Shown: piece by piece, positions 18,961 through 34,249 of the stretch
How positions within the stretch are numbered: position 1 is the stretch's first letter
Layout: each line of letters opens with the position of its first letter
Origin: Candidatus Arcticimaribacter sp.
GTDB lineage: Bacteria > Bacteroidota > Bacteroidia > Flavobacteriales > Flavobacteriaceae
Reading direction: 5' to 3'
Assembly (NCBI GenBank): GCA_003023645.1
Contig: PXYQ01000006.1
Location: 1 to 34,249 of the forward strand
Length of the DNA stretch: 34,249 bases
Program-made: the position numbers and the translations under genes
Notes under the pieces: generated by a model
Seen by the model: only the letters and a program-made list of their open reading frames with translations
Databases searched by the model: none
What the model was told of the DNA's origin: nothing

Positions 18961-21519
18961 TTGCTAGATACAGGTGCTCAAAAAAAACATATTGCTTCTT
19001 GGACACTAATGCTGTGGATCAATTTACTTGTCGGTCAGGCAATTGATCCACCTGTATTGAACGCCGAAGGAGATCAAGCATATTGTGCATTGTCCGAACA
19101 AAATATCGTCACTGAATTTTCCATTGAGAACAATAGTGGCAGTGCAGTCACAGCTGTTTACATTCAAATCTCTTTGGGCTATGTGCAAGGAGAAGATATT
19201 TTACGGCTAACTGGAACACACAACATAAGCAGCAATTGGAGTCCAGCTGAAGCAAAACTGACACTTAAAAGCAATACATCTGAAGTCGATTACAACAATC
19301 TCGTAAGCGCAGTTCAAGATGTTATTTTTTATAGCAGCAACCCCAACCCTAGTCAGGATAAGTATTTTTCTATAACAATTGGAAGCGCAAATTACCTCCC
19401 CTCTACTCAACATTATTATGAATTTGTTCCTAGCTTGGGTATAACGTGGTCGGCAGCTAAGCTTGCAGCAGAGAACAAAAATTATTTTGGAATCCAAGGA
19501 TACTTGGCTACAATCTTGTCACAAGATGAGTCTAATATTTCTGGAAAATTGACCAATGGCGTCGGTTGGATTGGCGGATCGGATCAAGAAGTAGAAGGAA
19601 CTTGGAAGTGGGTAACTGGGCCAGAAGCGGGTACTGTTTTTTGGACCGGTCTTTCGAATGGAAGTTCGCCTAATTATGCAAACTGGAATAATAGCGAGCC
19701 TAACAATCTAGGAAACGAAGACTATGCTCACATCACAGACCCTTCAGTTGGACCTGCAGGGTCTTGGAATGATTTAGGAAACGCTGCGCAGAGTTCCGGA
19801 GCTTATCAAGCCAAAGGCTATGTTGTAGAATATGGAGGCAGTACTGGAGATCCTGAACTCAATATTTCTGCGAGTACTCGTCTTGTAATGCCTCGAATCA
19901 TTAGTGTTGAAGATTCCGAAGCGTGCTTCGGCGCTTCACAAACCCTAACTGTGAGTGCTACAGTTAGCGACATCAATTGGTACGACAGCGAAACAGCTAG
20001 CAATGTTCTATTTACTGGAACAACGTTTTCCATACAGCCTAGCAACACCACAACCTACTGGATCGATCTCATCCCTTCTGACTGTACAAATGAAATTCGA
20101 ACTCCAATAACTGCTACGGTGCATCAATTTCCAGTAATTATCAATCGAAATCTTATCATAGAACAATGTGATAATGACAATTTGAATGATGGAAGAACGC
20201 TTTTTAATCTCAATGCTTTTGGGGCACTAATTTCTCAAAATCACAGCAATGAAACATTTGAATTTTATACGAACTCAAACTATGATATTACTTCTTTAAT
20301 TCCGAACCCAACAGCCTACAGAAATGCTGCTTTTGAAGAGGTGTTTTTTGTTAAAATAAACAACGCTTTCGACTGTTCAGAAACTTCATCGCTAACCATA
20401 AAAGTAGGTGCTAGTCTTATCGATTCGAGTTTTTTCATTCCTTATGAAGTTTGTGAAACAGAAATAAAATCGCTCGATCCAGGGATTGAATATTGGAGTC
20501 GAGATACTTTTTTAACATTAGAAAAAGAGCTTGTTAATTCGAATTCAAAGTTTAGTTTACAAAGCATATTAATTACTTTTTACTCCAATAAAGATGATGC
20601 CGAACTTCGGCAAAATGGAATCAGCCTAGAGAATGAAACCGATGCATATGTCATGGAGACTCCCTACCTACAGGAGATATGGGCTCGTGTTGACAATCTA
20701 GATCTCAATACGATTTCTTGTCTTGGAATTCAAAAAGTTGCAAGTCTAAAAGTAAACAAGCTACCTGAGTTCGAGCGCTTGGATTCAAACAGCATTGTAT
20801 GCTTAAATCTTGATCCGATCACACTAGAGGTTGCATCTTCAGATAATCGAACGTATCGCTACAGTTGGACTAAAGACGGCATAGATTTCCCCTTAAACAT
20901 TGCAGGAGTAGATACACAGATTCTTGTTTATGAAGGAGGCATCTATGAAGTAACCGCTGAAACAACAGACGGAACAAATTGCTCAAAAAAGACAAGCATG
21001 GAATTGATTTCATCGGAGATAGCAACCCTAACACAAGATGACCTAACGGTAATTGACTTAGAGGGCGATACGGGTTCTGTGAAAATCACTATGACTAATT
21101 TAGGAGTTGGTGTATATGAATTTGCTATTGATGATCCGTTTGGTCCATACCAAGACGCTCCCTATTTCGACAACTTACTCCCCGGAATTCATATGGTATA
21201 CATACAGGATAAGAACGGCTGTGGGATAGCCGGAATAGAAGTGTCGATTCTTGGGCACATGAAATTTTTTAGTCCAAATGGTGATGGAATCAATGATTTT
21301 TGGAAGATACTCGGCGTTAGCGAAAATTTTCAGCCCAACAGTCGTGTTTATGTTTATGATCGAAATGGAAAACTGCTTGTTGATTTGGATCCCCTAGAGG
21401 TTGGTTGGGATGGTACCTATAACGGATTTCAGCTACCACAAGACGATTATTGGTTTAGGGTATTTTTTGACAATGGAAAGGAACGTATTGGACACTTTAG
21501 CTTATTAAGACCAGAATGA
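18961..21519 (+). CDS. T9SS type B sorting-domain protein with C-type lectin-like domain and Ig-like domain
   Basis: Lectin-like segment (WSAAKLAAENKNYFGIQGYLATILSQDESN...WIGGSDQEVEGTWKWVTGPEAG...NWNNSEPNNLGNEDYAHI...GSWNDLG...YVVEYGG); C-terminal FFSPNGDGINDFWKI...VYVYDRNGKLLVDLDPLEVGWDGTYNGFQLPQDDYWFRVFF. Start uncertain: TTG at 18961, or ATG at 19009. Confidence 0.9.
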   Translation: MLDTGAQKKHIASWTLMLWINLLVGQAIDPPVLNAEGDQAYCALSEQNIVTEFSIENNSGSAVTAVYIQISLGYVQGEDILRLTGTHNISSNWSPAEAKLTLKSNTSEVDYNNLVSAVQDVIFYSSNPNPSQDKYFSITIGSANYLPSTQHYYEFVPSLGITWSAAKLAAENKNYFGIQGYLATILSQDESNISGKLTNGVGWIGGSDQEVEGTWKWVTGPEAGTVFWTGLSNGSSPNYANWNNSEPNNLGNEDYAHITDPSVGPAGSWNDLGNAAQSSGAYQAKGYVVEYGGSTGDPELNISASTRLVMPRIISVEDSEACFGASQTLTVSATVSDINWYDSETASNVLFTGTTFSIQPSNTTTYWIDLIPSDCTNEIRTPITATVHQFPVIINRNLIIEQCDNDNLNDGRTLFNLNAFGALISQNHSNETFEFYTNSNYDITSLIPNPTAYRNAAFEEVFFVKINNAFDCSETSSLTIKVGASLIDSSFFIPYEVCETEIKSLDPGIEYWSRDTFLTLEKELVNSNSKFSLQSILITFYSNKDDAELRQNGISLENETDAYVMETPYLQEIWARVDNLDLNTISCLGIQKVASLKVNKLPEFERLDSNSIVCLNLDPITLEVASSDNRTYRYSWTKDGIDFPLNIAGVDTQILVYEGGIYEVTAETTDGTNCSKKTSMELISSEIATLTQDDLTVIDLEGDTGSVKITMTNLGVGVYEFAIDDPFGPYQDAPYFDNLLPGIHMVYIQDKNGCGIAGIEVSILGHMKFFSPNGDGINDFWKILGVSENFQPNSRVYVYDRNGKLLVDLDPLEVGWDGTYNGFQLPQDDYWFRVFFDNGKERIGHFSLLRPE

Positions 21520-22529
21520 TGAAGGAAATGCTAAAAAAATCCTTTCTCGTGGTTTTAGTCTTTGGTCAATTTATTGTCTTAAGCGCTCAAGGTTTTGTAC
21601 CCATATTCAACGAATATTTAGCGGAAAATCTATATATGGTTCATCCGGCTATGGTTGGAGTTAACCTTAAAAATGCTCGAATCAATCTCGGAAGTCGGCA
21701 GCAATGGTTTAATGTTCCTAATGCTCCAGGTACTAATCTACTTACACTAGAATACAAAGCGACAAAAAACGTAACGATGGGCTTACAACTCATCAAGGAT
21801 CACAACGGCTATCATTCTAAAAACTCCAACTACCTCACCTTCGGCTACCGAATTTATTTGAATGATGCCATTTGGAATACCCGACGTTCATTCCCGACTA
21901 AAAACGACAACATAAAAGAACTCTCCTTTGGAATTAACATCGGATCCATCAACTACAGCATCGATCAAAGGAGTTTTGATGCCCGAATTCCTGACCCACT
22001 ACTGAATGCCAACTCAAGTGGAACACGTTACCTTACAATTGATGCAGGAGCTGCTTACGTATCTACTCATTTATCTGCTCAGGTTTCAGTCAAAAACATC
22101 AACACGAACGATGCACAAGGAAACACTACAGATGGGGATGCAAACATAAATCTGTCAAAATTCAAGCATTACTTGGCTTCACTTCAGTATGAAATCTACT
22201 TCAATAACGGCTGGAATTTAGAACCTTCTTTTTTAATTCAATTTTTAGAAAAAACAGAAGAGAGCAGTTTGGATTTGAATCTAAAAATATATCGGTTGGT
22301 TAAGAAGGGTAGGATCTGGCTTGGAGCCTCTTATCGACAAAATTTCATTGAAATAGACACCCCTTCTGAAACTAAAACTCCAAAGCAAAACTATACTCAC
22401 TTTACTCCTGTTTTTGGAATGAATTATGGTCGTTATTTATTCTCCTATCATTACACTTCCAACCTTGGAACTTTAAACCTAGGCACTTCAGGCCTCCACT
22501 ATTTCTCACTTGGAATAACCCTCTTTTGA
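21516..22529 (+). CDS. PorP/SprF family type IX secretion system membrane protein
   Basis: FNEYLAENLYMVHPAMVGVNLKNARINLGSRQQWFNVPNAPGTNLLTLEYKATKNVTMGLQLIKDHNGYHS; ATGA overlap with the upstream type B T9SS protein. Confidence 0.92.
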   Translation: MMKEMLKKSFLVVLVFGQFIVLSAQGFVPIFNEYLAENLYMVHPAMVGVNLKNARINLGSRQQWFNVPNAPGTNLLTLEYKATKNVTMGLQLIKDHNGYHSKNSNYLTFGYRIYLNDAIWNTRRSFPTKNDNIKELSFGINIGSINYSIDQRSFDARIPDPLLNANSSGTRYLTIDAGAAYVSTHLSAQVSVKNINTNDAQGNTTDGDANINLSKFKHYLASLQYEIYFNNGWNLEPSFLIQFLEKTEESSLDLNLKIYRLVKKGRIWLGASYRQNFIEIDTPSETKTPKQNYTHFTPVFGMNYGRYLFSYHYTSNLGTLNLGTSGLHYFSLGITLF

Positions 22530-23889: not shown

Positions 23890-26800
23890 ATGAATTTAAA
23901 GATTCTTCAATTAATATTATTAACTATATTTTGGGCAAACTTTGCTGTTTCTCAAACAATAACCGTAACTAATTTAAACCCTTCAGGGTCTGGTTCACTC
24001 GAAAATGCAATAAATCAATATTCCAGTTCAGGAGGTACAATAGTATTTGCAAGTAATTTAAGCGGAACGATTACAATTTCATCTGGATTTACTAACATAA
24101 CATCAAATCTGACAATCACAGGTAACGGTAAAACCAATACCATAATCAGCGGTGGAGGAAGCTCCTCTAGAATGTTTAGCATAAGTGGTAACGGTAATCT
24201 TACACTAAACTCAATGACTCTAAAAAATAATGGAAATCCCGGAAGTAATGCGGGATCTATTTTTTATTTAAATAATGTTAATGGTGGTATTACCACGAAT
24301 GATGTTTTAATAACAGAGTGTTCCAATACCATTTCCTTCATCTCAAATAAAGGAACACTTAACGTCAATAATTCTCAAATTGACAATAATGCAGGAAACT
24401 ATCTTTTTAGATCTGATTGGGGAAATACACCCGAAGGATGTCCAATAAACGAATCTGTATTTGCCAACAAAACTATAATTCAGAATTCTGACATCACCAA
24501 TAATTCTGGTGTTGTTTTCTGGACGGAACGATTCGTTAAAATTGATAATTGTAATATTGCAAATAACAGCAGTAACATTTTCGCCTATTTTAGAGGAGTT
24601 AATGTCTATAAAGTTTTAGGTTCTAACATTGAGAACACCGGAGGGTTTAGCTTTTCTAGTTGGATTCAATCAAATACAGGTGGATGGGGAAACAAGATAT
24701 TGTGTTCAGATCATTTTTCATTTGATGGGAATACTTTTGTGAACAGTGGTAATATTACTATTCCGGTGAACTATGGGCCATCTTTTACGGTTGGTAATAA
24801 TTCTTTTGACCGTACAATATCAAACTATCTTTCATACGATTCTTCCAGCCCACCAACATTGTCCTCAAATAGTTTAGCGTCACCTCCATCTGACATCTCA
24901 TTATCTTCGACTTCAGTCGATGAAAATATTTCAATAGGTACTACAATCGGCGGTTTAACAACTACCGACGCTGGTAGCGGAGATTCACACACCTATTCAC
25001 TCGTTTCGGGGACAGGAGATACCGATAATGCAAGCTTCTCCATCAGCGGAGCCAATCTATTAACCAATACTGCTCTGGATTATGAAACCAAAAGCAGTTA
25101 CAGCTTACGAGTGCAAACATCCGATGGAACGGATTCGTATCAAGAAGCTTTTACCATTACCATTAACGATCTAAATGAAGCGCCTACAGACATCGGATTT
25201 GCTGGTACTTCAAGCCTTGAATATCTTGTTGTTGGAGGAGGAGGTGCCGGTGGAAAAGGTAATTCAAATGAAGGTGGCGGTGGCGGTGGTGCTGGTGGTT
25301 ACTTAACGGGAACCATTACTTCAATCTTTGGTGAAACATTCGCCGTTACAGTAGCAGCTGGTGGAACAGGAGTTAATTCTACAAGTAGTCCAGGAGGCAA
25401 TGGTGGAAATAGTTCTCTAGCAGGTCAAAATATTACTACTGTCACTGCTCTTGGCGGGGGCGGCGGTGGAGCTTGTAGTTCCGCAACAGGTTCTAATGGG
25501 GCTTCTGGAGGGGGAGGTTCAGGATGTAGTACAGATAGACCTGGAGGTTCAGGAACCACAGGACAAGGAAATAATGGAGGAACAGGACGATGGGTAAGTC
25601 GCTCACCCGGAAATGGTAATGGTGGCGGTGGTGGTGGTTCATCGTCTGCTGGAACGAACGGCGCTATTAGAAATGCCGGTACCATTGGTGGAGGAGGCGC
25701 GGGTACCTCAAACGACATAAGTGGCTCGACTACAATTTATACTGCTGGAGGAAATGGAGGACCTGGAAGAGCATATGGAAATTATAATCCACCTAATCAG
25801 ACAGGCAACTCAGGTAACGGTGGAATTGGTGGAACAAACTATTCTGGAGGAAATGGTGCAAATGGAACAGTCGTCATAAGATATAGTGGAAACCAAATAG
25901 CTACCGGTGGTACTGTTATCCAAAGTGGTGGATACACCATTCACTCTTTTACCCAGATTGAAAATTCATCAATTGTATTTCAAAGCGGTTCCGCATCTTC
26001 TTCCTCCTCTTCTATCGATGAGGGTGTAAGCATAGGCACATTGGTGGGTAGTTTGCTTGCGACAGATGAAGACGATTCCACAAACACGTTCACACTAGTT
26101 AGCGGAGATGGAGACACGCATAATGAATTATTTAGTATATCCAATTCTAACCTTTTGGTAAACGGTTTGATTGATTATGAACAAACACAGGTGCTGGATA
26201 TTCGAGTACAAGTTACAGATGGACAGTTTACTTATGACAAAGCACTGACCATTAACGTTAACGATGTAAACGAAGCTCTCACTGATATTGCCATAACTGC
26301 TTCCTCTGTTGATGAAAACCTTGCTTCAGCAACCACTGTTGGGGGATTGACCACTACAGATGGCGATAATGGAGACAGCTTTACCTATACCCTAGTTGAT
26401 GGTGTGGGTTCTGATGATAATGCAAGTTTCTCCATCAGCGGAGCCAATCTATTAACCAATACTGTTCTGGATTATGAAACCAAAAGCAGTTACAACATCC
26501 GTGTGCAAACATCCGATGGAACAGATTCGTATCAAAAAGCTTTTACCATTACTGTTAACGATGTAAACGAAGCACCTACTGATATCGACCTATCCGCAAC
26601 TGATGTTGATGAAAACCTTACCTCAGGAACCACTGTAGGGGGATTGACCACTACAGATGGCGATAATGGAGACAGCTTTACCTATACCCTAGTTTCGGGA
26701 ACAGGAGATACCGATAATGCAAGTTTCTCCATCAGCGGAGCCAATCTATTAACCAATACTGCTCTGGACTATGAAACCAAAAGCAGTTACAACATCCGTG

Positions 26801-29800
26801 TGCAAACATCCGATGGAACGGATTCGTATCAAGAAGCTTTTACCATTAATGTTAATGACCTTACAGAATCCTCGATTACTCAGGTGGCATCAAACAACCC
26901 CAATGGTACATACAGAATTGGTGAAACCATTGATATTCAAATAACATTTAATAATGCCGTTACCGTAAGTGGTTCTCCTCGATTGCTCTTAGAAACTGGA
27001 GACTCAGATTCTTATGCAACCTATTTTTCAGGCACTGGCTCTACAGTTTTGATCTTTCGTTATACGGTGAATGAAGATGATCTGAGTGGTGATTTGGATT
27101 ATGCTTCTACTTCTGCTTTAGAATTAAACGGTGGAACTATTGTCAGTTCAAGTAATACAGCTGCTGCCCTTAGTCTTCCTTCAATTGGAAGCAATAAGCG
27201 AATTAAAAAAATTGTAATTACTGAAAATTCTGGAGGACATCAAACCTTAAAAGCCATCCACATGATTGTTGCTCCTGACGGAGGATCGGTAATTGATGTA
27301 GCAACCACTAGTTTAGCAGGAGCTTCCACTACAGATACTCATCATCAAAATAATTTTGGTGACGATCGACTGGTAATTAATCTACTTCAAAATAAAACGA
27401 ATAATAAAAACTACACTTTTAACTCACCCGCTACAGCAGAAATAACCTTCAATCAAAGTTATAGTATTAATGATTTACATGAATTTACTTTTTATGGGTG
27501 GGCTCAATATAGTGGAGGCTATTATGGACGAATTGCTAATTTTAATTTTAGCTTTAAAGATGATGATGGAACAGAGGTTTATAGTTTTACCTCACCTTCA
27601 ACCTATCTAAACGGTTCTAGCCAGTTAGTAGTTCATCGTTTAATTGGTGAAAAAGGGGCCTCAGATGGTTCGATTTGGCAGGATGATATTAACGGACACT
27701 TTAGTTCAGCTGGTTATGGTAGTGGATGGTATATAAACAACCATACACTTCCTTCACATGGCGGAGGATCATCCCTTGCGAGTGTCAAAAATATTGTGAT
27801 TGATGGTATTCTAGCACCCACAATAACACAAACCCAAATTGCTTTGGACAACAGCTCTGTTTCCCTAAGCTTTTCTGAGGCAGTATTCAATACCAATAGT
27901 GGAAGTGGAAGTTTACAAGCAAATGATTTTACCTTATCTCTTTCTGGAGGAAATGCAACATTATCTTCAACAACTCCTTCAAGCATTAGTATTGATGGAA
28001 CGACTGCAACACTTGGTTTAGCTCTATCTGGAACACCAAATGGAAAAGAACTACTAACCGTTACTCCGGCAGTAAATTCTATTTATGATAGTGGTGGAAC
28101 GGCAGCAGAACCCATACAAAACAATAATACAAGCCATCTGATTCCGAATATTGTTACCACTAATTTGGTTCTTTTTCTTGATGCAGCGAACAATAGTTCC
28201 TATTCTGGATCTGGGAATAATTGGTATGACTTATCTGGAAATAACAATCATGGGGTCATTGACGGTTCAAGTTATAGTGCTGTCGGTGGAGGAAGTATAA
28301 GTTTTGATGGAACCAACGACCAGGTTATCATTCAAGACAACAACACCCTTGATTTCTCTAGTGAAATTACCATATCCTACGTCCTTGAACCCAATTGGGG
28401 TGATTGGAGCCCTTTTATAAGTAAAGGAGGAGAGACAAACAATCGTAATTTTAGTACTTGGGTGGGAAGTGACAAAGGAATTGATATCGATAATCGCTCA
28501 TCGGGATCCATTATAAAACCCACGTACACTGCATCTTCTGAAATGGCCAATGGAAGATTATCTGTAGTAACTGTCGCTATTGAAAATTCTACAGGAATAC
28601 TCAGAACCTACGTAAACGGAATACTAAGGAACAGCCAATCGGGCACACTGGGATCACCAAATTCAGGATTACTTTATATAGGAAGCCATGGTGATGAAAA
28701 TTTTGGGAGTGGGAAAATAAACAAACTACTACTCTATAATCAAGCATTGACAAATGACCAAGTCTATCAGAATTACCTTGCGATCACCAATACGCCTCAA
28801 ATCACAGTTGCCAGTATAACTTCTGACAATAGTTTGGCATCCCTAACTTTTGATCAGGTTACTTTCAACACAGATGCAGGAAGTGGGTCTTTACAAGCAT
28901 CTGATTTCACCCTATCACTTTCTGGAGGAAACGCTACGTTATCGTCTGCAACTCCATCGAGTATTAGTATTAGTGAAAACACAATTGAATTGGGTCTTTC
29001 TCTTTCTGGAGTTGTAGATGGAAATGAAGTTTTAACAATTTCTCCTGTTGCTCATGCTGTTTTTAATACTTATGGATTTGCGGCTACTTCAGCTCAAAGC
29101 AACAATACAGTAAATTTGATTTTCACAAATAGTGTACCTACGGACATTGCTTTATCTTCTTCTTCTATAAGTGAAAATGTTGTCACAGGTACAACCATTG
29201 GAGCCTTATCATCAACCGATGCAGATACTGGAGACATACATACCTATAGCCTGATTTCTGGAACTGGTGATACAGACAACGGAAGTTTTACGGTGAGTGG
29301 TACGAACCTACTCACTGCTACAGCCCTAGATTTTGAGGTTAAAAGCAGCTATGCGATAAGGCTAGAAACCTCAGACGGATCTGCTACCTATTCTAAAGCA
29401 CTTACCATTACTGTTAACGATGTAAACGAAGCGCCTACTGATATCGTCCTATCCGCAACTGCTGTTGATGAAAACCTTACTTCAGGAACTGTTGTAGGGG
29501 GATTGACCACTACCGATGTTGATGGTGGTGACACCTTCACCTATACCCTTGTTGGTGGTGGGAGTGACAATGATCGTTTCTCCATTAGTGGTGCTAACTT
29601 AGTCACCGGAGCTGGGTTTGATTTTGAGACTAAAAACAGCTACAGTGTCGTAATTCAAACATCCGATGGGTCTGCTACCTATTCTAAAACACTTACCATT
29701 ACTGTTAACGATGTAAACGAAGCGCCTACTGATATCGACCTATCCGCAACTGCTGTTGATGAAAACCTTACTTCAGGAACTGTTGTTGGGGGATTAACCA

Positions 29801-32800
29801 CTACCGATGTTGATAGTGGAGACACCTTCACCTATACCCTAGTTGATGGTGTGGGTTCTGATGATAATGCAAGTTTCTCTATCAGCGGAGGTTCAGAGGT
29901 ATCATATGCCCTTGACTTTGATGGATCAAACGATCATGTTACAACAAGTATTGATGCCGATAGGAATGTAATGCCCTCCACAACATGGTCGGGGTGGATT
30001 AAGCCGACAGGAACAAGTGGTTGGCAAGTGATTTTTGGTATGGAAGATGGCGGTTGGGATCGGATGTTAATTATTGAGTCTGGAAGCCTTCAGCTTTCTA
30101 TGGGGCAGACTGGTGGTAGATGGCAGACTGGTGTAAATGTATTGCCTAATGTTTGGCAACATGTAGTTGCTGTATATGACAATGGTTCGATGCGAATGTA
30201 TTTCAACGGAACTGAATACAGTACAGGAAATGACGAGGGCAATCATTCTTCAGCCGGAATGTTTACAATTGGAGGAAACCAAACACACTCTCCCCATAAT
30301 TACTTCAGAGGACTTATTGATGAAGTAGCCGTTTGGGACGAGGCTCTGAACGCATCAGAAATATCGACTTTATACAACACAGGAAGCGGTTTAGATGCTT
30401 CATCTAATTCAGGTAATTATACTTCTTCTTCAAACCTTGTTGGTTACTTTAAAATGAATGAAGGTTCTGGAACAACAATTACGGATTCAAGTGGAAGTGG
30501 AAATTCAGTTACACTAACCAATATGGATGCCTCCTCAGATTGGGTTACAGGAACTATTGCTCCAACTTCACAAAATCAAGGGAGTGGTACCGATTTACTT
30601 ACCGATGCTGTTTTTGATTATGAAACCAAAAGCAGTTACAATATTCGTGTGCAAACATCCGATGGGATGAGTTCTTACGAAGAAGCCTTTACCATTAGCG
30701 TGAATGATGTAAATGATGTACCTACCGATATTGACTTATCTACTTCCTCTGTAAACGAAAATGTTGCTACTGGAACTACTGTAGGGGGATTAACCACTAC
30801 CGATGCCGATAATGGAGATACATTTACCTATACTTTGGTCGCTGGAACGGGTGCTACCGACAATGCAAACTTCTCTATCAGTGGAGCCAACCTACTCACT
30901 GCCGCAGCTTTGGACTTTGAAACCAAAAACAGCTACAGCATTCGTGTACAAACATCCGATGGGACGGATTCGTATCAAGAAGTCTTTACCATTAGCGTGG
31001 ATGATGTAAACGAAGCACCTACTAACATAGAGATTTCGGGCGGTACAGCAGGTAGTAGTCAAATGATTTCAAGTGGGCTTATCGTACATTTAGACGCATC
31101 GAATGCTGCTTCTACAGCAACACCAAACAGTAGTTGGATCGATCTGTCTGGTAACGATAATCATGGTGATATCATGAACGGGGTCAGCTTTGAAAACAAT
31201 AACTTTAAAACCTCGAATGCTTCTGGACGGAGCGGTGTGCGTGTTGGACCACTACCAACGATCTTGAAAAACAACCATTCTTTCACTGTAGTGGTTAAAG
31301 TAACACCTCAATCTACCTCTGGAAATATTTTAGGCCTTTCTAGCAGTTCTGATCATGGTGGATGGAATGCACCCGTAATTCCAAGTGCAAATTCTAAGAT
31401 TTTCCCAGGACTTCACAACGCACATGGGCAATTTCAACGCCCTTTTGTCATTGGAACCACTTATGAATACGTATACAGCTTCAATCACACCAATAATGAA
31501 CATAAGTTTTATGAAAATGGTGAACTTGTAAATACAAGAACAGTCGGATTCGGTGCAGCTAACTCCTCTGGTTACCTATTTCTTGGAGATGACAACCCCG
31601 GATGTTGTGGCAATTATGAGGGAGTTCATTCAGCAGACTTTGCAGGAGATTATGAGCGTTTACTAGTCTATGATCAAGCCTTAACCGATCAAGAAATTAC
31701 TGGACTTTACCAATCAGGCCCTTCAGGAATAGAAGAAAACAGTGTGAATGGTACACTCATTACCACCCTATCGGCAACCGATCAAGACACCAACAATACC
31801 TACACCTATAGTCTTGTTGATGGCGCTGGGAATCTTGGCCGTGACAATGCTAGTGTAACGGTTTCTGGGACACAAATCCTAGTCAATGGACCCATTGATT
31901 ACGAAACAACTCCTTTTTTACTGATCAACGTTCAGGTCAATGACGGTACAAATACCTTAACCTCTTCTTTTACCCTTACCGTATTGGATGTAAACGACAA
32001 TGCGCCTACCGCAATGGCACTTTCAACCACCACTCTTGTTGAGGATTTGGTTTCTGGTTCAACCATAGCATCCCTTGCATCGGTTGATGCGGATACGGCT
32101 AGCTTAAACACCTTTAGTTATAGCCTAATTGATGGGGACGGATCCAACGACAACTCCAATAATCGCTTTACAATCAGCGGAAATTCGTTACTCAGTTCGG
32201 GTACTTTTGATTATGAAACTACTTCATCTCACAACATTTATGTGCAAGTCAATGACGGAGCAAATACCTACAATCAAGCCTTTACTCTTACGATCATCAA
32301 TCAAAATGATACCCCAACAGACATCGCTTTAAGTAACACATCATTTTTAGAAAGTGTTGCATCTGGATCAGTTCTTGCCACCATAACAACAACAGATCAA
32401 GACACCGCAGACACACATGCGTTTGCTCTAGCCAATAGTGGAGACACACAAGATGACGATAATGGAAGTTTTACGGTCAGCGGAACGCGTTTGATTACCA
32501 ACGTAGCTTTTGACTACGAAACCAAAACCAGCTATAACATTTACCTCAAGGTAAGTGATGGAACAAGTGACTATTACAAGGCGTTTACACTTAACATCAC
32601 CAATGTTAATGAAGCGCCTACAGAGATCAATTTTTCCCAAGAAAGCTTTTCGAATAATGGACTTATTTTACATTTAGATAGTGGGAATTCATCCTCTTAT
32701 CCGGGCTCAGGGAATACATGGTATGATTTAAGTGAAAATAATTATAACGCAGTTTTAATGAATTCACCCTCCTATTCAAGCTCTAGTGGGGGGCTCCTTA

Positions 32801-34249
32801 GTCTTAACGGTTCTAGCCAATGGATACAACTTAATTCATTCGCAGGGGCACTAACAAACAATAGTGCTTATACCATAAGCATATGGTTTAAGTCAACCGA
32901 AACGAACCCTTCTGGAGGACTTCATAACAATGCTATTTTTTCTATGCATACCGCCAACGGAGACAATCGATATAGAATTGGTGCTGCACCGGATGCCAAC
33001 AGAGGTTTGTATTACAATTTTGGTACCGGCTCGTCTGAAGGGCGTGTTAGTCAGATAAATTTACACGATAACCAATGGCATAATATGACCATTACTAAAA
33101 ACACTGGCGTAGAAGCTCAATTTTATATTGATGATGTTCTTAGAACGTCCAACGGTTCCATTACTAATGGAGTAAACTTTAATGGTGTTGGTCAAGTTTC
33201 GATTGGACAGGAATATGACGGTGGTAATACCTCTGATCATTTTCAAGGAGATATTCCCGTAGTGATGGTCTACAATAAAGCCTTAGAAGCAGACGACAGG
33301 TCTTCTCTTTATGGTAACTATAAAAAAAGATATATTGACGGTGAGCAGACGGAACCCGTTTCATCAGAAGGAAATGGAATTTCTATTACTGAAAATACAG
33401 CCCTAAATACGTTTGTTGGGACACTGCAAGCTGAAGATCAAGACACCAACAATACCTATACCTATAGTCTTGTCGATGGCGCTGGGGATCTTGGACGTGA
33501 CAATGCTAGTGTAACAGTTTCTGGGACACAAATCCTAGTCAACGGACCCATTGATTACGAAACAACTCCTTTTTTACTGATCAACGTTCAAGTCAATGAT
33601 GGTGAAAATACCTTAACATCTTCCTTTACAATCACTGTAGTGGATGTAAACGACAATGCGCCTACCGCAATGGCACTTTCAACCACCACTCTTGTTGAGG
33701 ATTTGGTTTCTGGTTCAACCATAGCATCCCTTGCATCGGTTGATGCGGATACGGCTAGCTTAAACACCTTTAGTTATAGCCTAATTGATGGGGACGGATC
33801 CAACGACAACTCCAATAATCGCTTTACAATCAGCGGAAATTCGTTACTCAGTTCGGGTACTTTTGATTATGAAACTACTTCATCTCACAACATTTATGTG
33901 CAAGTCAATGACGGAGCAAATACCTACAATCAAGCCTTTACTCTTACGATCATCAATCAAAATGATACCCCAACAGACATCGCTTTAAGTAACACATCAT
34001 TTTTAGAAAGTGTTGCATCTGGATCAGTTCTTGCCACCATAACAACAACAGATCAAGACACCGCAGACACACATGCGTTTGCTCTAGCCAATAGTGGAGA
34101 CACACAAGATGACGATAATGGAAGTTTTACGGTCAGCGGAACGCGTTTGATTACCAACGTAGCTTTTGACTACGAAACCAAAACCAGCTATAACATTTAC
34201 CTCAAGGTAAGTGATGGAACAAGTGACTATTACAAGGCGTTTACACTTA
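23890..34249 (+). CDS. Giant secreted multidomain adhesin-like protein (beta-helix, cadherin-like repeats, Gly-rich, SwmB-like and LamG domains); 3' end beyond window
   Basis: Reading frame 1 from ATG 23890 (MNLKILQLILLTIFWANFAVSQTITVTNLNPSGSGSLENAIN...) appears open to 34248 (3453 codons, read by eye). Repeats of type EAPTDIDLSATxVDENLTSGTxVGGLTTTDxDxGDxFTYTLV...NASFSISGANLLTNTALDYETKSSYNIRVQTSDGTDSYQEAFTIxVND. Missing from the ORF track, presumably because no stop occurs in the window. Confidence 0.93.
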   Translation, partial: MNLKILQLILLTIFWANFAVSQTITVTNLNPSGSGSLENAINQYSSSGGTIVFASNLSGTITISSGFTNITSNLTITGNGKTNTIISGGGSSSRMFSISGNGNLTLNSMTLKNNGNPGSNAGSIFYLNNVNGGITTNDVLITECSNTISFISNKGTLNVNNSQIDNNAGNYLFRSDWGNTPEGCPINESVFANKTIIQNSDITNNSGVVFWTERFVKIDNCNIANNSSNIFAYFRGVNVYKVLGSNIENTGGFSFSSWIQSNTGGWGNKILCSDHFSFDGNTFVNSGNITIPVNYGPSFTVGNNSFDRTISNYLSYDSSSPPTLSSNSLASPPSDISLSSTSVDENISIGTTIGGLTTTDAGSGDSHTYSLVSGTGDTDNASFSISGANLLTNTALDYETKSSYSLRVQTSDGTDSYQEAFTITINDLNEAPTDIGFAGTSSLEYLVVGGGGAGGKGNSNEGGGGGGAGGYLTGTITSIFGETFAVTVAAGGTGVNSTSSPGGNGGNSSLAGQNITTVTALGGGGGGACSSATGSNGASGGGGSGCSTDRPGGSGTTGQGNNGGTGRWVSRSPGNGNGGGGGGSSSAGTNGAIRNAGTIGGGGAGTSNDISGSTTIYTAGGNGGPGRAYGNYNPPNQTGNSGNGGIGGTNYSGGNGANGTVVIRYSGNQIATGGTVIQSGGYTIHSFTQIENSSIVFQSGSASSSSSSIDEGVSIGTLVGSLLATDEDDSTNTFTLVSGDGDTHNELFSISNSNLLVNGLIDYEQTQVLDIRVQVTDGQFTYDKALTINVNDVNEALTDIAITASSVDENLASATTVGGLTTTDGDNGDSFTYTLVDGVGSDDNASFSISGANLLTNTVLDYETKSSYNIRVQTSDGTDSYQKAFTITVNDVNEAPTDIDLSATDVDENLTSGTTVGGLTTTDGDNGDSFTYTLVSGTGDTDNASFSISGANLLTNTALDYETKSSYNIRVQTSDGTDSYQEAFTINVNDLTESSITQVASNNPNGTYRIGETIDIQITFNNAVTVSGSPRLLLETGDSDSYATYFSGTGSTVLIFRYTVNEDDLSGDLDYASTSALELNGGTIVSSSNTAAALSLPSIGSNKRIKKIVITENSGGHQTLKAIHMIVAPDGGSVIDVATTSLAGASTTDTHHQNNFGDDRLVINLLQNKTNNKNYTFNSPATAEITFNQSYSINDLHEFTFYGWAQYSGGYYGRIANFNFSFKDDDGTEVYSFTSPSTYLNGSSQLVVHRLIGEKGASDGSIWQDDINGHFSSAGYGSGWYINNHTLPSHGGGSSLASVKNIVIDGILAPTITQTQIALDNSSVSLSFSEAVFNTNSGSGSLQANDFTLSLSGGNATLSSTTPSSISIDGTTATLGLALSGTPNGKELLTVTPAVNSIYDSGGTAAEPIQNNNTSHLIPNIVTTNLVLFLDAANNSSYSGSGNNWYDLSGNNNHGVIDGSSYSAVGGGSISFDGTNDQVIIQDNNTLDFSSEITISYVLEPNWGDWSPFISKGGETNNRNFSTWVGSDKGIDIDNRSSGSIIKPTYTASSEMANGRLSVVTVAIENSTGILRTYVNGILRNSQSGTLGSPNSGLLYIGSHGDENFGSGKINKLLLYNQALTNDQVYQNYLAITNTPQITVASITSDNSLASLTFDQVTFNTDAGSGSLQASDFTLSLSGGNATLSSATPSSISISENTIELGLSLSGVVDGNEVLTISPVAHAVFNTYGFAATSAQSNNTVNLIFTNSVPTDIALSSSSISENVVTGTTIGALSSTDADTGDIHTYSLISGTGDTDNGSFTVSGTNLLTATALDFEVKSSYAIRLETSDGSATYSKALTITVNDVNEAPTDIVLSATAVDENLTSGTVVGGLTTTDVDGGDTFTYTLVGGGSDNDRFSISGANLVTGAGFDFETKNSYSVVIQTSDGSATYSKTLTITVNDVNEAPTDIDLSATAVDENLTSGTVVGGLTTTDVDSGDTFTYTLVDGVGSDDNASFSISGGSEVSYALDFDGSNDHVTTSIDADRNVMPSTTWSGWIKPTGTSGWQVIFGMEDGGWDRMLIIESGSLQLSMGQTGGRWQTGVNVLPNVWQHVVAVYDNGSMRMYFNGTEYSTGNDEGNHSSAGMFTIGGNQTHSPHNYFRGLIDEVAVWDEALNASEISTLYNTGSGLDASSNSGNYTSSSNLVGYFKMNEGSGTTITDSSGSGNSVTLTNMDASSDWVTGTIAPTSQNQGSGTDLLTDAVFDYETKSSYNIRVQTSDGMSSYEEAFTISVNDVNDVPTDIDLSTSSVNENVATGTTVGGLTTTDADNGDTFTYTLVAGTGATDNANFSISGANLLTAAALDFETKNSYSIRVQTSDGTDSYQEVFTISVDDVNEAPTNIEISGGTAGSSQMISSGLIVHLDASNAASTATPNSSWIDLSGNDNHGDIMNGVSFENNNFKTSNASGRSGVRVGPLPTILKNNHSFTVVVKVTPQSTSGNILGLSSSSDHGGWNAPVIPSANSKIFPGLHNAHGQFQRPFVIGTTYEYVYSFNHTNNEHKFYENGELVNTRTVGFGAANSSGYLFLGDDNPGCCGNYEGVHSADFAGDYERLLVYDQALTDQEITGLYQSGPSGIEENSVNGTLITTLSATDQDTNNTYTYSLVDGAGNLGRDNASVTVSGTQILVNGPIDYETTPFLLINVQVNDGTNTLTSSFTLTVLDVNDNAPTAMALSTTTLVEDLVSGSTIASLASVDADTASLNTFSYSLIDGDGSNDNSNNRFTISGNSLLSSGTFDYETTSSHNIYVQVNDGANTYNQAFTLTIINQNDTPTDIALSNTSFLESVASGSVLATITTTDQDTADTHAFALANSGDTQDDDNGSFTVSGTRLITNVAFDYETKTSYNIYLKVSDGTSDYYKAFTLNITNVNEAPTEINFSQESFSNNGLILHLDSGNSSSYPGSGNTWYDLSENNYNAVLMNSPSYSSSSGGLLSLNGSSQWIQLNSFAGALTNNSAYTISIWFKSTETNPSGGLHNNAIFSMHTANGDNRYRIGAAPDANRGLYYNFGTGSSEGRVSQINLHDNQWHNMTITKNTGVEAQFYIDDVLRTSNGSITNGVNFNGVGQVSIGQEYDGGNTSDHFQGDIPVVMVYNKALEADDRSSLYGNYKKRYIDGEQTEPVSSEGNGISITENTALNTFVGTLQAEDQDTNNTYTYSLVDGAGDLGRDNASVTVSGTQILVNGPIDYETTPFLLINVQVNDGENTLTSSFTITVVDVNDNAPTAMALSTTTLVEDLVSGSTIASLASVDADTASLNTFSYSLIDGDGSNDNSNNRFTISGNSLLSSGTFDYETTSSHNIYVQVNDGANTYNQAFTLTIINQNDTPTDIALSNTSFLESVASGSVLATITTTDQDTADTHAFALANSGDTQDDDNGSFTVSGTRLITNVAFDYETKTSYNIYLKVSDGTSDYYKAFTL
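24000..24880 (+). other. Predicted right-handed parallel beta-helix-like N-terminal domain of the giant protein
   Basis: SLENAINQYSSSGGTIVFASNLSGTITISSGFTNITSNLTITGNGKTNTIISGGG...LTLNSMTLKNNG...ITTNDVLITECSN...LNVNNSQIDNNAGN pattern. Confidence 0.6.
25216..25893 (+). other. Glycine-rich domain of the giant protein
   Basis: EYLVVGGGGAGGKGNSNEGGGGGGAGGYLTG...ALGGGGGGACSS...GGNGGPGRAYGNY...NGGIGGTNYSGGNGANGTVVIRYSG. Confidence 0.85.
26280..26870 (+). repeat. Two adjacent near-identical cadherin-like repeats (~97 aa each)
   Basis: DIAITASSVDENLASATTVGGLTTTDGDNGDSFTYTL... and DIDLSATDVDENLTSGTTVGGLTTTDGDNGDSFTYTL...; long identical stretches at nucleotide level. Confidence 0.9.
27820..28140 (+). 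repeat. SwmB-like beta-sandwich domain, copy 1
   Basis: TITQTQIALDNSSVSLSFSEAVFNTNSGSGSLQANDFTLSLSGGNATLSSTTPSSISIDGTTATLGLALSGTPNGKELLTVTPAVNSIYDSGG; second copy at ~28800-29130. Confidence 0.65.
28155..28785 (+). other. LamG-like jellyroll domain 1 of the giant protein
   Basis: TTNLVLFLDAANNSSYSGSGNNWYDLSGNNNHGVIDGSSYSAVGGGSISFDGTNDQVIIQDNNTLDFSSEITISYVL...INKLLLYNQALTNDQVYQNYLA. Confidence 0.85.
28800..29130 (+). repeat. SwmB-like beta-sandwich domain, copy 2
   Basis: ITVASITSDNSLASLTFDQVTFNTDAGSGSLQASDFTLSLSGGNATLSSATPSSISISENTIELGLSLSGVVDGNEVLTISPVAHAVFNTYG. Confidence 0.65.
29890..30588 (+). other. LamG-like jellyroll domain 2, nested in a cadherin-like module
   Basis: FSISG|GSEVSYALDFDGSNDHVTTSIDADRNVMPSTTWSGWIKPTG...NVWQHVVAVYDNGSMRMYFNGTEYSTG...FRGLIDEVAVWDEALNASEISTLYNTGSG...TSQNQGSG|TDLLTDAVFDYETKSSYNIRVQTSDG. 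Confidence 0.88.
31039..31725 (+). other. LamG-like jellyroll domain 3, nested in a cadherin-like module
   Basis: NEAPTNIEIS|GGTAGSSQMISSGLIVHLDASNAASTATPNSSWIDLSGNDNHGDIMNG...FAGDYERLLVYDQALTDQEITGLYQSGPS|GIEENSVNGTLITTLSATDQD. Confidence 0.85.
31985..32593 (+). repeat. Long direct repeat, copy A (identical to 33641-34249 by eye)
   Basis: Offset 1656 nt; starts TGGATGTAAACGACAATGCGCCTACCGCAATGG; ORFs 32129-32332 and 33785-33988 in the supplied track encode the same 67-aa peptide. Confidence 0.95.
32638..33378 (+). other. LamG-like jellyroll domain 4, nested in a cadherin-like module
   Basis: NEAPTEINFS|QESFSNNGLILHLDSGNSSSYPGSGNTWYDLSENNYNAVLM...DNQWHNMTITKNTGVEAQFYIDDVLRTSNG...VVMVYNKALEADDRSSLYGNYKKRY...|ISITENTALNTFVGTLQAEDQD. 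Confidence 0.85.
33641..34249 (+). repeat. Long direct repeat, copy B, truncated by the window end
   Basis: Same sequence as copy A over all 609 visible nt. Confidence 0.95.

Follow-up and report, generated by a model that had tools for sequence, protein, structure and literature searches.

A LamG domain nested within a cadherin-like repeat of a giant surface protein from Candidatus Arcticimaribacter

Introduction

Does the LamG domain encoded in a giant open reading frame (ORF) of Candidatus Arcticimaribacter sp. (Flavobacteriaceae) stand between two cadherin-like repeats or inside one, and what would such a placement do? We addressed this question in a single window, the whole 34,249-nucleotide stretch analysed here (contig PXYQ01000006.1, assembly GCA_003023645.1). 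Split host modules that carry ligand-binding domains are already known from RTX adhesins. In AhLap of Aeromonas hydrophila, FrhA of Vibrio cholerae and MpIBP of Marinomonas primoryensis, split Ig-like domains project ligand-binding domains, and in one AhLap case the chain exits after the first beta-strand (PMC12077191, PMC10865825). The terms 'LamG' and 'cadherin' are absent from the main text of both papers. A survey of Bacteroidetes fibrillar adhesins reported many adhesive domains in mid-protein positions (PMC8286594); 'cadherin', 'LamG' and 'nested' are absent from its main text. No paper was found in a literature search combining LamG, cadherin and 'nested domain'.

Results

The giant surface-protein ORF (23890–34249, forward strand) was a single open frame of 3453 codons up to the contig end, open across the whole split region, with a signal-peptide-like N-terminus and its 3′ end off the contig. 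Its Pfam content comprised 13 cadherin stretches (Cadherin PF00028, E 1.5e-83), four Laminin_G_3 domains and one Gly_rich_2 domain. Alignments placed an intact cadherin-like module directly 5′ (29434–29724, +) and another directly 3′ (30721–31017, +) of the split one. A non-cadherin block (26869–29136, +), with Ig-like stretches and one that resembled LamG by eye, stood in series: according to half-module HMMs, full modules stopped before it and restarted after it at profile position 1. This block alone had no Pfam match at E 0.001. A cadherin and LamG block was apparently duplicated (31780–32079 and 33436–33735, 1656-bp spacing, 94% identity), the second copy heading toward the contig end.

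The N-half of the split module (29725–29889, +; residues 1946–2000, PTDIDLS...SFSISG) covered profile positions 1–55, and the C-half (30589–30720, +; TDLLTDAVFDYETKSS...VNDVNDV) covered positions 56–99. The cut lay between SISG and TDLLT: the N-half ended in NASFSISG, the C-half opened with TDLLTDAVFDYETKSSYNIRVQTSDG... at 30589, and the module resumed at profile position 56 and was complete by 30720. According to the half-module HMMs, the break ran from profile position 55 to 56 across a gap of 233 residues, with no loss or overlap. This bore out the original prediction that a complete LamG domain of approximately 233 codons interrupts a cadherin-like module mid-fold; the interruption lies at a hairpin turn. 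The insert (29890–30588, +) was exactly 233 codons long. It matched Laminin_G_3 (PF13385) over the whole profile (1–151/151; insert residues 11–159; E 4.9e-28, 98.6 bits) and carried a C-terminal LVGYFKMNEGSG...DWVTG extension. The accompanying claim that every uninterrupted module reads FSISG-ANLLTNTALDYETKSS was overstated, as other modules read TVSG-TNLLT, SISG-ANLVTGAGFDFE or TVSG-TRLIT in the same register. The nearest relatives of the insert were ordinary LamG domains with approximately 30–37% identity; no close donor of the insert LamG was found, the best match having approximately 37% identity.

With the half-module HMMs, the N-half scored 82.0 bits and the C-half 70.3 bits, each ranking third of the 14 corresponding halves in the window. 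Both were near the top of the distribution over 53 modules in three proteins (medians of 50.5 for N-halves and 50.9 for C-halves). The acidic calcium-site positions E16, D31, D301, E303 and D316 were invariant in an alignment of the split host with intact modules, and calcium binding is predicted. Judged from their sequence, the two halves are not decayed fragments of separate repeats, a reading that the original prediction had weighed, because their profile coverage is complementary (1–55 and 56–99) and they score like the best intact modules.

The insert and its host were modelled with AlphaFold2. The LamG relatives used came from a single-protein scan, which returned LamG relatives only. 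In a first model, built with LamG rows only, the LamG blocks had pLDDT values of approximately 53–86 and the host was unfolded. Mixed cadherin and LamG alignments were placed wrongly by MAFFT, and approximately 650 random row sets plus greedy extension were screened for placement. A second model, built from a 14-row set with cadherin rows, gave pLDDT values of approximately 54–88 for the LamG domain and 28–60 for the host halves; its rows were chosen to let intact modules bridge the split, and its host strands are no independent evidence. Foldseek matched the modelled LamG domain to pentraxin, PAPP-A and agrin LG-type folds, and we assign the insert an LG/jelly-roll fold with moderate confidence. 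The two host halves would pair into one sandwich, as their sequences suggest. Since this pairing was modelled at low confidence, we only infer that the LamG domain projects laterally from the stalk.

The same split, identical in length and with 87–88% identity, was present in AC_MB531, an independently assembled metagenome-assembled genome (MAG) of a sister species (same genus); there it lies on a 953-kb contig. Pairwise comparison (NG86) of the window with AC_MB531 gave a dN of 0.072 and a dS of 0.343 overall, and 0.071 and 0.282, respectively, for the insert. The dN was alike in both halves and the insert, a rough estimate for such short segments. The dN/dS of approximately 0.2 indicates purifying selection on the split unit, including the insert.

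Could the halves be leftovers of two different repeats that flank a serial LamG domain and no longer fold together? Repeats recombine, the host modelled poorly, and the two halves had different nearest modules at the DNA level (those at 26278, 26575 and 29434 for the N-half, with 84–86% identity; those at 24886, 26278, 26575 and 30721 for the C-half, with 75–79%), but the exactly complementary break, the half-scores near the top of all modules, the kept acidic positions and the low dN/dS in both halves across two species make this unlikely and favour a single repeat split by the insert.

A nested arrangement had been predicted to be unusual. This was not the case for nesting as such, which is frequent in the protein family; rarity applies only to the D-hairpin site. 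With a sorting into nested and serial that was devised after the data had been seen, the half-module HMMs placed another 13 domains (LamG, Gly-rich or PA14) inside cadherin modules of the window protein and two AC_MB531 proteins. Twelve were LamG or Gly_rich_2 domains that followed a kept A strand (PTxIxF-like), with the module resuming at profile position 4–10; given the relatedness of the three proteins and the duplicated blocks common to them, these 12 cases do not equal 12 events. The remaining one was a PA14 domain near strand B, with the module resuming at profile position 24. This PA14 nest, in a giant protein of the sister species (locus L035, 5912–6553), represents a third insertion site. 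The window itself contained, at approximate coordinates assigned from the half-module HMMs and Pfam, a nested Gly_rich_2 domain (25207–25990, +) between strand A (APTDIGF) and strand A′ (SIDEGVSIGT), a second nested LamG domain (31042–31722, +; APTNIEIS ... IEENSVNGT) and a third (32641–33369, +; APTEINFS ... ITENTALNT), the latter two also at the A/A′ site. The A/A′ nests are less certain than the D-hairpin split because only a short A strand precedes the insert.

After each of two large Ig-type blocks in the same three proteins, a full module began at position 1, and these blocks were classed as serial. By eye, the AC_MB531 protein began with LamG- and PA14-like stretches ahead of its first cadherin. 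Given this start and the LamG-like stretch in the serial block at 26869–29136, lectin-type domains in these three proteins appear to be mostly, not always, nested. Elsewhere, SBBP beta-propeller repeats in Prochlorococcus (L037, 3311–4672; L039, 6584–7915) were apparently nested between strands A and A′ of a cadherin-like module of this type, and PA14 domains occupied the A/A′ site of cadherin-like modules in two Verrucomicrobiaceae MAGs, in near-identical form (L079, 3254–3793; L082, 4100–4639).

The insertion might also be merely tolerated, the LamG domain being a structural filler or spacer without a ligand-presenting role. The recurrence of lectin-type nesting in these proteins and the purifying selection on the insert render this improbable, even though Flavobacteriaceae have numerous and diverse LamG domains and we only infer a ligand role for the insert. 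We prefer a split repeat that presents its LamG domain as a binding head.

No second independent D-hairpin split was found with the half-module HMMs among 802 N–C module pairs at 132 loci, some of which overlap within a genome; as the HMMs derive from this repeat subtype, more distant cadherins were under-sampled. Apparent D-hairpin splits at L079 and L172 proved to be ordinary cadherin repeats in which one half had been missed. The search within the genus covered 19 genomes, of which the window genome and AC_MB531 alone contained the split. Outside the genus, searches with a host plus LamG query covered 301 genomes of the family, 396 of the phylum and 398 of the order (overlapping samples), and a module alignment was run against 395 genomes of the class; no full split was found. 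Altogether, these searches reached about 1,000 other genomes; few candidates were scored per genome, and alignment was used to check the longest of the partial spans. On inspection, a long match at L182 was an unrelated protein bearing a LamG domain, and the host-side extensions of those at L006, L009, L016 and L030 looked like chance. A search of other Flavobacteriia for the same split had been suggested; the split was recovered in the sister species, with no independent case found elsewhere among the loci and genomes covered.

As judged from its occurrence in two related genomes only, the D-hairpin split is one evolutionary event. The same-length split on the 953-kb contig of AC_MB531 further argues that it is neither chance nor an assembly artefact. 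That assembly or binning joined unrelated stretches in this repetitive region of a fragmented MAG (190 contigs, 84% complete) is scarcely credible, as the frame is open throughout and the other species carries the identical split with 88% identity.

The two AC_MB531 giant proteins comprised 5974 and 3409 codons. In the first, Pfam matched TSP_3 repeats and CHU_C within the final 2663 residues, and the next gene encoded PorP_SprF; the second protein had the same terminal sequence as the first. Pfam matched no RTX repeat family in the window ORF or in these 2663 residues. Type B C-terminal domain (CTD) proteins bind PorP-like barrels (PMC9143113). The protein family appears to be type IX-secreted. 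The window protein, whose C-terminus lies beyond the contig end, would by analogy be exported by type IX and held by a PorP/SprF-like barrel, like its sister-species relatives. Upstream of the giant ORF (18961–22529, +), a CHU_C-ended protein with Ig_7 was directly followed by a PorP_SprF gene, a predicted type IX substrate-and-anchor pair. PADLOC detected nothing in two upstream genes.

Discussion

We estimate a probability of roughly 75% that a cadherin-like extender repeat of this giant Bacteroidota adhesin is a split domain that holds a LamG head off the stalk. The chain would exit the repeat at the turn that joins the FSI-ending strand to the one starting with LLT, fold a complete LamG jelly roll, return and finish the repeat. 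The termini of a LamG jelly roll lie close together. The LamG head would be held sideways off a stalk stiffened by calcium, with no break in the tandem array, and it may bind a glycan or other ligand.

By analogy, the arrangement appears to work like RTX split-domain ligand presentation, but the protein is not an RTX adhesin. In both cases, a domain with adjacent termini interrupts a stalk repeat of beta-sandwich type; ligand binding and off-axis projection are known for the RTX adhesins and presumed here. The chain exit after the first beta-strand in AhLap resembles the A/A′ nests of the window and sister proteins. RTX adhesins differ in having type I secretion, Ig-like split domains and CBM, RTX or vWFA heads, whereas the window family looks type IX-secreted and has a cadherin-like host, a LamG head and a D-hairpin site. 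The protein also resembles SprB-like type IX, type B-CTD proteins with PorP/SprF (PMC9143113), being a giant repetitive surface protein whose sister relative ends in CHU_C followed by PorP_SprF; in contrast to those, the window protein is cut off by the contig end before its C-terminus. With the fibrillar adhesins (PMC8286594), it would share adhesive domains in mid-protein positions.

A broader proposal is that in bacterial non-RTX giant adhesins, lectin-type heads are commonly carried within cadherin repeats, at a small number of sites that the fold can accommodate (the A/A′ turn, strand B and the D hairpin), with spacer blocks placed between repeats, so that mid-module insertion would predict ligand-binding domains. 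We advance it tentatively and consider it rather less probable than its opposite. Annotation pipelines read such nested domains as serial. If the split-domain reading of the window protein is true, mid-module insertion would point, from sequence alone, to ligand-binding heads in long repetitive proteins, and the split-domain presentation of binding heads would extend beyond type I RTX adhesins to giant cadherin-stalk proteins of Bacteroidota.
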